A stretch of 64,000 nt of DNA, from assembly GCA_036244855.1 (NCBI GenBank), contig BQKZ01000341.1:88942-152941 (forward strand). Reading direction: 5' to 3'. This document shows positions 6,490-64,000 of the stretch, one piece after another. The stretch is from Temnopleurus reevesii. Lineage: Eukaryota; Echinodermata; Echinoidea; Temnopleuroida; Temnopleuridae. A program made the translations under genes and the position numbers. Below the pieces are notes generated by a model that was not told where the DNA came from, ran no database searches, and saw only the letters and a list, made by a program, of their open reading frames with translations. Positions within the stretch are counted from its first letter, which is position 1. Every line of letters starts with the position of its first letter.

Positions 6490-6870
6490 CTCTCTATGAC
6501 ATTTTTTTGTGTTTTGTATTTTCTTTCCCTCTGTATCTCCAAAGGAAGACCGTGGATAGATGTATTTCTTACTCTTTTTTATAAAATACTTTGCCGTGTG
6601 GTGCATGGTTCTAGAACTGGTTTTGTGTTTTCTTTCCCTCTGTATCTCCAAAAGAAGACCCTGCATGAGTAAACAAATCTCTTTCTTTTTTTTTTATAAG
6701 ATATCTTGCCGTATGGTGGATGGTTCTAGAAATTTGCAATATTTTGCATATTTCTGGTTTTGTGTTTTCCTTCCCTCTGTATCTCCAAAAGAAGACCCTG
6801 AGTAAACGAATCTCTTTCTTTTTTTTATAATATATTTTGCCACATGGTGGTGGATGGTTCTAGAAATATG
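6490..6870. repeat. tandem repeat, about 120-130-bp unit, three copies
   Basis: Each copy carries TTTCCCTCTGTATCTCCAAA, then GAAGACC, a T run, a KATATTTTGCC-like stretch and GGTTCTAGAA. Copies start near 6510, 6625 and 6765. Confidence 0.85.
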
Positions 6871-7471
6871 CAATATATTGCAAGTTTATGTTGATTGGCA
6901 CTGATGGGCACATACCAAACAAAATCCTCCATTATGTGTTGAGATTTAATACGAAAGGACATGCCTATTTCTATTTTCAACTGATTTGCAATTGATTTGC
7001 AACTTTCTAGTCTAAGCCTATACTCGGTTCATGTTTCTCTTTCTTTTCTCTGTCGCCAAACATTCTCCAATTATCCACTTCACCCAACGCATTGACAAAG
7101 CCAATATCTGTTCTCTTGACTTGGATGCAGAAGGGGGAACAATATCTTGTTAAATTCAAGAGTCCGTCATTTCCTTGATATGTGTAGGTGTTGCGATGTT
7201 TTTTCGCCCTGGATGACATTTTAGTTCTTTTGATGCAGCATCAAGAGAAAAACGACTGATGTATTTTAATCCAGGGCAGGTCAAAACTGATACATACTAG
7301 TAAATTTTATTACAAATATTTAGTGTTCCGCAAAAGTGTCTAGCCATGACTTTCTTATGAGGCATAAAAATTGATAGGTTGCCCCCAGCCTCTCCACTAT
7401 TTCACAGCCCCTTAATTTTGTTACAACCCTCCCCAATACCCTCATCCAGTCATCCCCTCATTCTCTGTCGT

Positions 7472-7676
7472 GATACTGTATAAGCCAATATTTTAGCGTA
7501 CATATATTTTCGCGATTTCGGACCAGTTTGACACATTGACGTGTTGATATTTTCACGTTTTTGACAGTGTTTGTACACAAATGATGCATCCTACAGAGTG
7601 GATATTTTTGTAAGGCCAAAACCGCGAAATTAGCGAAAATAAAACCACCGCAAAAATTTCAGCTTTCACAGTATCT
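7472..7676. mobile_element. MITE family C, copy 1
   Basis: The terminal GATACTGTATAAGC is complementary to the right end GCTTTCACAGTATC, and internal motifs TTCGCG/CGCGAA also pair. A diverged second copy lies at about 24054-24237. Confidence 0.7.
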
Positions 7677-26131: not shown

Positions 26132-27081
<950 letters not shown>

Positions 27082-27107
27082 TGAGGAGCAAAATTATACA
27101 ACAACAT

Positions 27108-28494: not shown

Positions 28495-28958
28495 TGTGGG
28501 GTGTTGCTAGAAAGTTGCGATCAATTGCAAATCAGTTGTAAATTGAAATGCCCATTTTCAGTTCAGTTCATCCATGTATTTCACAAACAGCATAAAAAAC
28601 ACTAAAATTTACAGAGTAAAATATGTAGCAGAGTAGTTTTAAAACTGGTTGACGGTAGGAGCCAAAAAGGAATGCCCTTATGAGAGGCCGACCGATAGGG
28701 ACTGATAGTTGTAAATTGAAATGCCCATTTTCAGTTCAGTTCATCCATTTATTTCACAAACAGCATAAAAAACACTAAAATTTACAGAGTAAAATATGTA
28801 GCAGAGTAGTTTTAAAACTGGTTGACGGTAGCAGCCAAAAAGGAATGCCCTTATGGGAGGCCGACCGATTTTTATTCAAGACGAGCAATGATTTTGATTT
28901 GCCTGTACCAATCAACTCTAAATTTCGATCATTTGAAATTTTCTAGCAACACCCCCTT
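28495..28958. mobile_element. MITE family A copy 3, enlarged by an internal 173-bp duplication
   Basis: The outer ends GGGGTGTTGCTAGAAAGTTG and TTTTCTAGCAACACCCCC pair. Inside, a 173-bp unit starting GTTGTAAATTGAAATGCCCA at 28535 repeats from 28708 with few changes. Confidence 0.85.
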
Positions 28959-53361: not shown

Positions 53362-53545
53362 TAAAGGCCCCAGCACACCAAACACGGCACGGCGTAACGA
53401 AACGGTTTTTACGCAGCATCTCGGATGTTATTGGCCACCGCGCTCCTCCGCGTAAAGGATCTTCAACAATTGGCCAATCACAGGGGAGACATTGCGTAAA
53501 TACCGTGCCGTGATGCCGTGCCGTGTTTGATGTGCCCGGGCCTTA
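53362..53545. mobile_element. MITE family E, copy 1
   Basis: AAAGGCCCCAGCACACCAAA then CACGGCACGGCGTAACG at the left pairs with CCGTGCCGTGTTTGATGTGC then CCGGGCCTT at the right (~45-bp imperfect inverted repeats). It lies about 40 bases upstream of the TATA box of the CUB gene. A second, interrupted copy lies at 56541-57996. Confidence 0.85.
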
Positions 53546-55098: not shown

Positions 55099-55364
55099 CC
55101 TCTCTCCATTCGCTCTCTTTCAGTCCTTCTCTCTATCTCCCCTCTCCCTCCCTCTCTCGCTCTCCACCCACTCTCTTTCAGTCTTTATCTCTTTCTCTCA
55201 CTTTCTCTACCCGCTCTCTTTTAGTCTCTCTCTCTCTCCCTCTCTCGTTCTTACTGTCATTCTCACTCTGTCCCCTCCCCTCTATCTCTCCCTCTCACTC
55301 TCCACCCACTCTCTTTCAGTCTTTCTCTCTTTCTTTCTCCCTCTGTCATTCTCTATCTGACCCC

Positions 55365-55405
<41 letters not shown>

Positions 55406-55570
55406 CTCACTCTGTCAACTCCCCCGCAATTTCTCCCTCTTACTCTCTCTCTCCACCCAATCTCTTTCAGTCTCCCCCTCTCTCCCCCCCCCTCTCTCTC
55501 TTACTCACCCCTCCCCAAACCACCCCTTCCTTCCTTTCATAAAATAACATCTCCTAATTTCTCCCTTTCA
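55040..55570. repeat. 530-bp pyrimidine-rich tract abutting a splice acceptor
   Basis: (TC)n and CTCTCC sequence runs uninterrupted into the TTTCAG acceptor of CUB exon 3, so this intron end has an extremely long polypyrimidine tract. Confidence 0.9.
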
Positions 55571-55571
55571 G

Positions 55572-55793
55572 CTCCACCGGCCTGTGCCGGTCCAATCATA
55601 GCGAGCCCGCACTTCTTCACCCCCATCACTCTCCAGATGGGGCAAGCGGACTGCGTGTGGCGCATAACGGCACCCACAGGGCAACGTGTCCGGCTGTACG
55701 TTATCATCATGAACACGAATGAAGACGAACAGTTCCGAGTTTATGACCATGGCACCTCGACCGATGAGCAGTACCTAGCTTCCATCATTCAAG
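55572..55793 (+). CDS. CUB gene exon 3: first part of CUB domain 1
   Basis: 222 bases, phase 1 at both ends. It reads PPACAGPIIASPHFF, ADCVWRITAPTGQRVRLYV, and FRVYDHGTSTDEQYLASIIQ. The C-x-G at the start, DC-x-W-x-I-x-AP-x-G and V-YD-G are the standard CUB landmarks. It pairs with exon 4 to complete the domain. Confidence 0.9.
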
Positions 55794-55934
55794 GTATATG
55801 CTTTATAAATACTCCTTTAAAACGTTGGGCAAAAGTCTACCAAAGACTGGGTAACATATACATGTACATTGCCAGCACAGCTACTGGTCAAAATAATTAC
55901 ATTAGCAAGATATAATAAACTTTCCGAAAAGTTA

Positions 55935-56090
55935 AGCGGGCCACAGACAATAGAACCATACGCCGTGTATTCAACTGTGAGGACACAACAATCGCAAGCC
56001 GGTTCCGATTTGAATAGCATTACAAAGAACCATTGAATTTGTGTTCGACTTAATTTGTCGAAAAGAGTTTATATCGTGTTATGCTATCCC
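55935..56090. mobile_element. family H repeat, inverted copy
   Basis: GCCACAGACAATAGAACCAT, ATTCAACTGTGAGGACACA and AGCCGGTTCCGATTTGAATA are the reverse complement of blocks at 58072-58250, forming the outer arms of a nested complex. Confidence 0.75.
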
Positions 56091-56540: not shown

Positions 56541-57996
56541 GCCCGGGCACACCAAACAAGATTGCGGCACGACATAACAATGGAGGTATCGTCCGTTAAT
56601 TCACTATTTCATTTGAAATTGAAATATTGAAAATAGAATATTGACGCCAAAGTAATGGAGGTATCGTCCGTTAATTCACTATTTCATTTGAAATTGAAAT
56701 ATTGAAAATAGAATATTGACTCCAAAGTCGATCAATATTTCAATTTTAAATCAGAAAAATGGCTCATTTTTTCAATTTCCATTTCTAAAAATGCAAAATT
56801 AAAAATTAAGAAAATGAAATATTGAAAAACGAACTTGTTTTTCTGTTTTTCTATTTTTTCTATTCTGTTTATCCAATTCGAAATCAGAATAATCAAAAAA
56901 AGGAACACTGCGACTGATTTCCTGTTTTTGTTTTTGCGTTCGCAAAACGGAATATTGATTAAGGTCGGTCCGAGCTCGACCAATATTTCAATTTCGTTTT
57001 GCAAAACAGAATATTGAAGACCATCCTCTACGGCCGAAACATTACAATCCTAGAATTATTTCAGACCCTTAAACTTAATGAATTCCGATCCCGCCGTCCG
57101 ATCGGCTTGCCGGTAGAGTACTAAACTGTATTGTAATGACTGTGTAAGACAGTGTAACAGCATGATGAATAGATAACTCTACTCTCCAGTAGGACTCCAA
57201 TCCTCTTTCTTAAAACAGCCTGATTTGTCAACAATAAAACATTTACAAAAACCCGTCGAGCCCATTCACTCGCTCGCACTCATGTTGAATCTATCTCACA
57301 GCGCAGCTCACTCAGCACTTGCAGACGCAATCGGGTTGGCGGCGGCTTTGCCCGCAGACTTTCGGCGTAAGATGCACTCGATTTGCGCTGGATATTGTGA
57401 GGGCACGGAGAGCCGAGCTCGAGATCGGAATTCATTTAAGGGTCTGAAATAATTCTAGGATTGTAATGTTTCGGCCGTAGAGGATGGTCTTCAATATTCT
57501 GTTTTGCAAAACGAAATTGAAATATTGGTCGAGCTCGGACCGACCTTAATCAATATTCCGTTTTGCGAACGCAAAAACAAAAACAGGAAATCAGTCGCGG
57601 TGTTCCTTTTTTGATTATTCTGATTTCGAATTGGATAAACAGAATATAAAAAATAGAAAAACAGAAAAATGAGTTCGTTTTTCAATATTTCATTTTCTTG
57701 ATTTTTAATTTTGCATTTTTAGAAACGGAAATTGAAAAATGAGCCATTTTTCTGATTTAAAATCGAAATATTGATCGACTTTGGAGTCAATATTCTATTT
57801 TCAATATTTCAATTTCAAATGAAATAGTGAATTAATGGACGATACCTCCATTCATAACGGCACGGTTTTTACCCGATACCTTCCGTGTGATTGGCCAATT
57901 ATTGTTAAATATCCTTTGCGCGGAGGAGCGCGCTGGCCAATAACAAACACGATACTGCATAAATATACCATGCCGTGATGCCGTGTTTGGTGTGCT
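56541..57996. mobile_element. MITE family E, copy 2, split by the foldback element
   Basis: The left remnant GGGCACACCAAACAAGATTG and the right part, ending TGCCGTGTTTGGTGTGC, correspond to the two ends of the 53362-53545 element. The 1274-bp foldback element lies inside it. Confidence 0.8.
56579..57852. mobile_element. 1274-bp foldback element with long inverted arms
   Basis: Ends AATGGAGGTATCGTCC and GGACGATACCTCCATT are perfect inverted repeats, flanked by the 6-bp direct duplication CATAAC (56573-56578 and 57853-57858). The arms pair almost completely over about 430 bases (roughly 56654-57090 with 57425-57852). The central ~330 bases do not pair. The outer 75 bp of the left arm are tandemly duplicated (56579-56653, 56654-56728) but single on the right. 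The centre is GC-richer and has no transposase signature. Confidence 0.95.
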
Positions 57997-58071
57997 GAAC
58001 GTCATGAAAGCTTGGGAGCCTAGACTATAAATTCAAAGGTGTAAATCAGCCTTTGAATAGCGATTTTTCTC

Positions 58072-58250
58072 AATATAACATGATATAAACTCTTTTTCGA
58101 AAAACTGAGTCGAAAGCAAATTCAATGGTCCTTTGACATGATACAGTGGTTGTATGTAAATTGGAACCGGCTTGCGATTGTTGGGTCCGCACAGTTGAAT
58201 ACACAGCTTACGGTTCTATCGTCTGTGGCCAACTTAATTTGTCCATAGAC
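58072..58250. mobile_element. family H repeat, direct copy
   Basis: TCGAAAGCAAATTCAATGGT, GGAACCGGCTTGCGATTG and TTACGGTTCTATCGTCTGTG match 43290-43450 in the same orientation and 55935-56090 inverted. Confidence 0.75.
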
Positions 58251-58585
58251 CGACCACCTCCGACTATGATTTGTCGGAAATGGTTTATATTGTGTTTAGT
58301 ATGAATCAGTGGAAATATCAAACAGCTCATACCAGCACAAATCATTGCAAACAACAATAGTGAACTTGAAGCATGAGTGAAATATCCCATTTTTATCCCG
58401 TTGTGTGTCTACTTCAGGGATGGACTTTTTTTAGAAGATTTTTTTTTGTACAATGAAAAATTCCCTTTTTTTGGTAGGTCACCCTTTTATCCCGCAGGTT
58501 GGAATTACGATTCTCTATTATCGATGATCTACAGGCTTCTGCCTCTACCGTTGAAGCTGGCGTTGGCAAGTAAGCATGAGAATGA

Positions 58586-58895
58586 TATGGTGTATTGGTC
58601 ATGACTCTCGCCTTTCAACCAGAGGGTCGTAGGTTCGAGTCCCACCCATGGCGTTAATTTCCTTTAGCAAGAAATTCATCTATATTGTCCTGCATTCAAC
58701 CCAGGTGAGGTGAATGGGTACCTGGTAGGAACATCTGGTAGGAATATTCATTCCTTGAAACGCCAAGTGCGCTGCACTGGTGGCTGCCGGGCTAAAGCCA
58801 GGGTAATAATGCTGCAATTGTGGAGCGCTTAGGGAATTCTCATGAATTGATAAGCGCTATATAAAAGCCGTTCATTATCATTATTATTATTATTT
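58586..58895 (+). mobile_element. tRNA-derived SINE, family 1
   Basis: The head has TCATGACTCTCGCC and the B box GGTTCGAGTCC. The body has CCATGGCGTTAATTTCCTTT and CAGGTGAGGTGAATGGGTAC, then AAGCGCTATATAAAAGCC and an ATT tail. Confidence 0.9.
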
Positions 58896-62655: not shown

Positions 62656-63397
62656 TTTATATATGATGACAGTTCTTCAAAATATACATTTTTCTATGAA
62701 ACACCGACTTTTGGACTTAAGAAATGTAGGGACATGCAAAAAGGCACTGCTTTTTGGACACATGCCCCTGGAAGAAACTGCATTAAAAAAGGGGAAAATA
62801 CCTACGTGGCATTAAAGTGGCACTCGGCACTTTACGCTCAACAACGGAGCGGCTCAACGACGGGAGAATTCTATGGGCGGCCAAAAGGACCAAAATTCAA
62901 AAGAGAGAAAATTAAATAACAACGTTAGAAATAAGAGTAACCAAGGGAAAAATATTTATATAACGCAGAAATGTGAAAGAAGCGCAAAAGAAAATGTACT
63001 ACAAAAATGAACCAAAAGTGTGGAAACAAAAACATAGATAAATATCTAGCTGTGTAAAACGAAATAAAAACGAAATTAAAACCAAGATGAATAAACTATA
63101 TCTTCTGCAGAAATAAGAACAAACACCAAAAAAGAAAAACAATGTCAGAAAAATACAAATAAATTGAAAACATAAATAAGTATTGGAATGATATAGAACG
63201 ATGAAATACAAGTTTAACCAGAGAAATTAAGAATTACAGAGAAATACGACAACACCAAAACATTAGAAGATGTAGGAAATCGAAAAATATTTTGTAGGTG
63301 TTTCTTTCATCCGGATAAAAAAGTTTAGTGTTTCACATCTGTAAAGAAATATAGCCAGATATTGTGATGAATACCTCTTTAATCGATCCACTTTCAG
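62656..63397. other. CUB gene intron 6 sequence
   Basis: A-rich sequence without recognised elements. One 113-codon frame overlaps the MITE copy and has no domain signature. It ends in acceptor CACTTTCAG. Confidence 0.5.
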
Positions 63398-63784
63398 ATG
63401 CTGCCAACGCTCAACCTGGATGTGGCGGCACGATCAACCTTCATGAAAACAATCTCCCCACTGCGAACATCCGTTCACCTTACTACGATGTGACACCCTC
63501 AACGTCTGGTTCCAGCGTCATGTGCTGGTGGTTTGTCACTGCGCCCTACAGCGATCAAGTTCAGGTTGACGTCATTGACGTCACAACAACGACCAATGAG
63601 CGGCTCTGGATAACGGACGGAGCGACGCCGTCTGATAATCCAGCCTTTGAACGCGTTTTCACCGGGGCACTTCCGGCGGTGGAGACGCTCTACTCGAATA
63701 CAGGAGGAGTCATTATTTCTCTAGAAGATCTGTCAGTTGATGGTCCCAACGGGCGCGGCTTTTCTCTGGATGTATCTATTGCAG
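63398..63784 (+). CDS. CUB gene exon 7: complete CUB domain 3
   Basis: 387 bases, phase 1 both ends, donor GTTAGT. It reads AANAQPGCGGTINLHENN, SPYYDVTPSTSGSSVMCWW then FVTAPYSDQVQVDV, ERLWITDGATPSDNP and GVIISLEDLSVDGPNGRGF. A whole CUB domain sits in one exon, unlike domains 1 and 2, which are split. Cysteines are GCGG and MCWW only. The gene continues beyond the end of the window. Confidence 0.92.
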
Positions 63785-64000
63785 GTTAGTATCTACTCGG
63801 CGGTGTTTCACCAAAATCATACGCACGACTTTATGAAAGACTGGAGTACGTTAATGAGTGTAATGTAATATCCTCGATCATTCAGCACAGGGACAGGTAT
63901 CAATCGTGCGTTAAGTGGTTCTTAAGGTCTTTGGCAATTTGGTGAAACAGAATCCTGTTATAGAACACATTTTACTGTCAGAAACTAATAAGTATGAAAA
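63785..64000 (+). other. start of CUB gene intron 7
   Basis: Sequence after the GTTAGT donor, with no further exon before the window ends. Confidence 0.6.

Follow-up and report, generated by a model that had tools for sequence, protein, structure and literature searches.

A dispersed family of foldback elements with 6-bp target site duplications in the genome of the sea urchin Temnopleurus reevesii

Introduction

Elements of the Mutator/Foldback superfamily have target site duplications of 8–11 bp, the duplications of the P superfamily include ones of 8 bp, and the TU foldbacks of sea urchins have 8-bp duplications and 15-bp tandem units. Two foldbacks which have been described individually are particularly relevant here. 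According to the available parts of the respective papers, Tetris of Drosophila virilis belongs to the Mutator superfamily and is flanked by duplications of 8–10 bp (PMC4079207), and Galileo, of the P superfamily, has 7-bp duplications and a known transposase (PMC3573991).

The element which we describe from Temnopleurus reevesii resembles Tetris in its long modular terminal inverted repeats (TIRs), its variable non-coding middle and the fact that no autonomous copy was found, and it resembles Galileo in its very long TIRs, in tandem repeats within them and in changes of TIR length. However, its duplications are 6 bp and never longer, in contrast to the 8–10 bp of Tetris, and so lie outside both the Mutator/Foldback range and the 7–8 bp of the P superfamily. 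In Galileo the tandem copies lie inside the TIR, whereas here it is the extreme 75-bp end which is doubled. The TU elements are likewise sea urchin foldbacks, and it is their general description, as given above, which sets them apart. A 6-bp duplication is unlike the 7–10 bp of the foldbacks compared; in the literature searched we found no foldback with a target site duplication of this length and, in titles and the beginnings of abstracts, no similar sea urchin family. The element adds a group of foldbacks, probably recently mobile, whose clean insertion sites let the target rule of an unseen transposase be read. With its size variants at one site and its flipped centre, it allows foldback remodelling to be tested in living populations.

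Structure of the element and its target site

The window, by which we mean the whole 64,000-bp stretch of DNA that was analysed, is part of contig C341 (BQKZ01000341.1) and contains an intact foldback element of 1274 bp at 56579–57852. The inverted arms, at 56654–57093 (forward strand) and 57420–57852 (reverse strand), are 96.4% identical in an alignment of 440 columns (9 mismatches, 3 gap openings). The 6-mer CATAAC is found exactly at both borders (56573–56578 and 57853–57858, both forward), where the match stops at 6 bases with no 7th. The termini are AATGG..CCATT, which is of the AA..TT type, and the end sequence which characterises the family is AATNNAGGTAYYRTCCGTTAATTC. The arms are AT-rich, with a GC content of 0.30–0.31 vs 0.485 in the centre between them (57094–57419) and 0.377 in the whole window; the centre has no clear coding signal. 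The left arm, which was the only arm folded, is internally palindromic and rich in short inverted motifs (folding z = −4.9; 0 of 100 shuffles folded equally well). There is no N inside this copy, and a search of it for open reading frames (ORFs) of at least 110 aa found none. The element has the features of the foldback class: inverted arms which make up most of its length, are internally repetitive and enclose a variable middle, and target duplications around dispersed copies (exact in 20 of 23, see below). The original prediction, made from the sequence of the window, of an intact 1274-bp foldback with a 6-bp target duplication, near-identical arms of about 430 bp made up of short inverted motifs and a GC-richer centre is therefore borne out, for the inverted motifs by the folding of the left arm.

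The left outer 75 bp of the element are a tandem doubling (98% matches). The additional copy of these terminal bases (56579–56653, forward) lies outside the left arm and reads GACGCC at its junction vs GACTCC in the inner copy.

When the element is removed, the joined flanks form a continuous MITE of ~177 bp, with its left part at 56541–56578 and its right part at 57859–57997 (both forward; aligned to uninserted relatives, with borders placed by eye). Two such relatives (76–77% alike) were found, one in the window at 53371–53541 on the reverse strand and one at L074:2378–2544. Both align straight over the junction with the 6-mer present once, as CATCAC and CATCAT respectively, where the window has CATAAC twice, indicating that the element is nested in the ~177-bp MITE. 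It had been claimed that the element was nested inside another element: the nesting stands, with this MITE as the host. The wider inverted repeat at 55926–56082 and 58075–58243 was not supported as the boundary of an outer element, as it is abundant (at least 41 other matches to the left repeat, with 40 of 3447 candidates scored) and L073 and L074 each have one copy of it (within 1.5 kb). These outer "arms" seem to be two copies of a repeat which is abundant and dispersed. Among the matches listed, contig C2205 has two copies in inverted orientation, and a paired form of the repeat is therefore possible.

Related copies in the genome

We searched the 558-Mb genome (10,433 contigs) for further copies. 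The 30-bp element end had 61 matches with no more than 3 mismatches (29 forward and 32 reverse) vs none for the reversed control, and a 262-bp left-end probe had at least 46 (40 of 93 candidates scored). Both ends were present at 14 sites of this family, hereafter family A; nine of these copies are 1.18–1.28 kb long and the rest measure 140, 299, 467, 521 and 3344 bp, with exact duplications around even the 140-bp and 299-bp copies (L077 and L079). A sister family, B, which has the end AATTGAGGTACTATCCGTTAATTC, is ~70–90% like family A in arms and centre. The family B end pattern had 156 matches, an uncounted share of which are family A ends, and a third set of ends (AATCARGGTACT...) had 39 matches, several of them being the opposite ends of B pairs. 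It is well supported that the element in the window is one of a dispersed family of foldbacks and ordinary in kind.

At L018:513–1948 a two-ended family B element with its own CTCTTA duplication contains a family A end (at 1501), suggesting that A probably inserted after B at this locus.

Target site duplications and target preference

Target duplications were tabulated for 23 two-ended copies, 14 from family A and 9 from family B. The duplication was exactly 6 bp in 20 of the 23 (19 different 6-mers) and never longer; the remaining three are family B copies, two of which (L085 and L089) agree at 5 of 6 bases and one of which (L088) has no duplication. The original prediction had named copies without such duplications as evidence against it, and this distribution speaks in its favour. 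All 11 family A copies with both ends intact have exact duplications. L012, which has lost 18 bp near one end and retains the last 8 bp, also has an exact duplication. L025 and L078 lack 19 bp and 17 bp of one end respectively, and are weaker evidence, as their boundaries were placed, with some circularity, at the recurrence of the left 6-mer; the 6-mer of L078 is also present within the element's own end. It should be noted that the losses of 17–19 bp in these three copies begin almost at one position (about GTGAATTA), by or near an intact duplication; cutting at one end could have left them as a footprint, or they could be an effect of the assembly. Outside the table are L080 (which shares the site of L045), L081, one-ended copies and, among the matches listed, at least 12 B pairs. 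The second end of L081 has the same orientation as the first and its flank is reverse-complemented, representing an inversion or a misjoin.

Bases next to the 20 exact sites are not evenly used: G is found at −2 in 13 and C at +7 in 10, with either or both in 17 (P = 8e−6 for G and 0.002 for C, both uncorrected for 18 positions × 4 bases and for a position picked post hoc). The target is a weak palindrome, with the symmetric preference G-N-(6 bp)-N-C.

Remodelling and recent movement

The doubled 75-bp end was found at four loci with different flanks (the window, L002, L003 and L004), all of which have the junction variant GACGCC, with GACTCC in the inner copy. The doubled end is thus a subfamily trait, which arose once and then spread. 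The doubling at the left end had been proposed as a possible mechanism of size change; the doubling itself is real, and it did not arise as a change in the window copy. Relative to the doubled end, the centre of L002 is oriented as that of the window copy and the centre of L003 in the opposite way (L004 has N inside), and a flipped centre is what would be expected if the arms recombine. A single site, with the duplication TGTCTG, is present both as a 3344-bp form with a 2.09-kb insert (C5610, L045) and as a 521-bp form (C4060, L080). Alignments of flank plus arm are 94–97% alike between the two, which are probably allelic and represent internal loss at a fixed site. The flipped centre and this size pair are each a single case, in an assembly which breaks inside such hairpins: many copies are interrupted by runs of N or by single-N joins (single N in L015, L030 and L075), which makes the assembly unreliable inside hairpins and calls for care with structures seen once.

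Sites with and without an insertion were also compared. In C351 (L015) a filled site is followed by a single N and then by the same flank unbroken, which matches at 28 of 30 bases as far as the insertion point. In C888 (L075, family B) both flanks also occur joined without a break (27 of 30 bases alike on the left and 25 of 30 on the right), and 2 of 6 bases in the 6-mer of this empty site are unlike those of the duplication. The empty flanks in these two contigs probably represent the second haplotype, in an animal which is very polymorphic, but could instead be duplicated flanks. L030 resembles such a filled and empty pair, but the last base of the empty flank differs.

The window copy differs from each of five others (L005, L008, L020, L012 and L025) at 10–14 of 847–866 arm positions (1.2–1.7%) and at none of the 332 positions of the centre. 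Across these six copies the 332 bp at 57099–57430 are identical vs 26 variable arm sites in 829 columns (P = 1.6e−4 under equal rates); in ten aligned copies the rates in arms and centre are equal (62/675 vs 30/331). The invariant centre could result from the filling of centres by the assembly or from exchange in the arms. The foldback family has probably moved recently, and the recent insertion which was originally predicted is supported to this extent, as probable.

Search for a coding partner

In neither the window copy nor the 20 loci for which ORFs were listed did we find a transposase ORF that belongs to the element. Scans against Pfam covered ORFs of L041, L042, L044, L045, L075 and L076, and the one L042 ORF scanned is a host receptor. 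ORFs were read by eye at L005, L008, L010, L024, L026, L030, L034, L035, L036, L039, L042, L043, L082, L083 and L084. The original prediction had proposed looking for a longer relative with a transposase in its centre, and none was found among the three longer pairs, L045, L075 and L076, which have no ORF above 152 aa; ten of their ORFs were scanned and matched no Pfam family at E up to 1. As autonomous partners, L075 and L076 (~3.8 kb) were rejected, their longest ORFs being 139 and 82 aa with no Pfam match, and L045 (3344 bp) was rejected because its interior recurs elsewhere without arms. Its positions 599–2686 are found armless, in two pieces, at C928 (83–85%), and its positions 2112–2690 at C8431 (93–94%, with N on one side there), so that we read L045 as a copy of ~1.25 kb which carries an insert.

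Two further candidates have genes close to an element end. L044 (C5639) was rejected, as the first 66 bp of the element, without a second end, lie at L044:145–210 inside the apparent first coding exon (by eye) of a gene with the domain PF20700, which we take to be a Kolobok marker on the basis of its domain and zinc-finger description and not of a named match. This suggests that the element inserted into a Kolobok-type gene. L041 (C9004) has one arm followed by YqaJ and DUF3504 ORFs and was not supported as a partner: with 40 of 91 candidates scored, recurrence in the 1.1 kb past the arm is limited to two stretches of ~100 bp, and C9004 carries no other end among the matches listed. The YqaJ-like nuclease ORF (472 aa; L041:2799–4214, reverse strand) and the DUF3504 ORF (6639–7598, forward strand), a Crypton-like recombinase, are within 7 kb of the family A end and are probably unrelated mobile genes. 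We found no paper which mentions PF20700, nor one which mentions a Mutator-like transposase domain together with YqaJ. A coding centre was not supported either, as frame shifts occur in 10 of 13 gapped alignments; substitutions in the centre fall at codon positions 1/2/3 in the numbers 43/28/50 (chi-square P = 0.04, from pooled, non-independent copies).

Mechanism and classification

The element is very probably a non-autonomous foldback DNA transposon with long arms and a length of ~1.2 kb, present at dispersed sites in the genome and mobilised in trans with 6-bp staggered insertion. Its fixed-length duplications and sharp ends point to integration of the cut-and-paste type, and the lack of a transposase ORF in the copies examined suggests that the enzyme acts in trans. 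A transposase supplied in this way, presumably a DDE/D cut-and-paste enzyme, would recognise the terminal AATGGAGGTATCGTCCG and excise the element, which would then insert across a 6-bp staggered break and give rise to the 6-bp duplication. Recombination between the arms may subsequently flip the centre and delete interiors. The hairpin would be spurious if the assembly had read through a palindrome, and odd joins do occur within these elements, as the single Ns in L015, L030 and L075 indicate. This explanation is extremely improbable, as the window copy contains no N, its arms differ at 9 positions, its two flanks differ, its duplication is exact and its joined flanks have uninserted relatives, and as 6-bp duplications occur independently at 20 sites.

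With regard to the superfamily of a trans-acting transposase, hAT transposons in general end in CA..TG, vs AA..TT in the element. Against this, hAT6 (Kapitonov and Jurka 2007) is cited as having 6-bp duplications in the available text of PMC12730594, which is the length seen here, although the likeness is to hAT6 by description only. The genome contains 17 matches to hAT domains, but none of these lies on a contig with element ends among the matches listed (about 100 of the 156 for B ends; by eye, in a fragmented assembly), and these matches link no hAT gene to the element; membership of hAT6 is unlikely. Mobilisation by a Kolobok-type transposase would fit the end found directly before the PF20700 gene of L044 (match E 9.4e−34) and the RR..YY ends of Kolobok, with which AA..TT agrees. 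However, the apparently interrupted exon (by eye) suggests that this end is an insertion into the gene, and the other 14 matches to the L044 protein are on contigs without element ends among the matches listed (by eye). Kolobok duplications are also TTAA, or 3–5 bp in KolobokP (available parts of PMC9587614), in contrast to the 6 bp without TTAA seen here, and we consider this source very unlikely. Other groups fit badly, again as described in the available parts of the papers: IS3EU shares the 6-bp duplication length but has TA..TA ends, with occasional TG..CA in GingerRoot (PMC10045372); Polinton/Maverick elements, which also duplicate 6 bp, end mostly in AGT/AG..ACT/CT in vertebrates, the group on which this comparison rests (PMC8097293); and the Dada families described lack TIRs and target small RNA genes (PMC3706591), in contrast to the long TIRs and varied targets of the element. 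The misfit of these 6-bp groups with checkable ends favours a cut-and-paste superfamily which is undescribed or classified differently and which has AA..TT ends and 6-bp duplications. Lack of fit is not itself evidence for a new enzyme, as end sequences vary within superfamilies, the available text of PMC8097293 mentions other end motifs for Mavericks and the coding partner was not seen, and this reading is possible but somewhat doubtful. hAT6 and an undescribed superfamily are both candidate homes. In its fullest form, an undescribed cut-and-paste superfamily defined by AA..TT ends, exact 6-bp duplications and the G-N-(6 bp)-N-C target, with centres inverted and doubled ends exchanged between subfamilies through recombination of the arms, is a quite unlikely reading.

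Other features of the window

A dispersed repeat at 58585–58893, with matches at several loci, has the look of a tRNA-like B-box (GGTTCGAGTCC, by eye) and is likely a SINE; ARAGORN and Rfam found no RNA gene there. The window also contains an ORF for a SIK kinase, which is 85% identical to SIK2 of Strongylocentrotus purpuratus and 76% identical to SIK of Diadema antillarum. Tandem doublings of 167 and 173 bp (98% matches), at 26770–27106 and 28534–28869, are recent local duplications near this SIK-like gene. ORFs at 55361–55915 and 63355–63789 resemble CUB-domain exons (by eye only).
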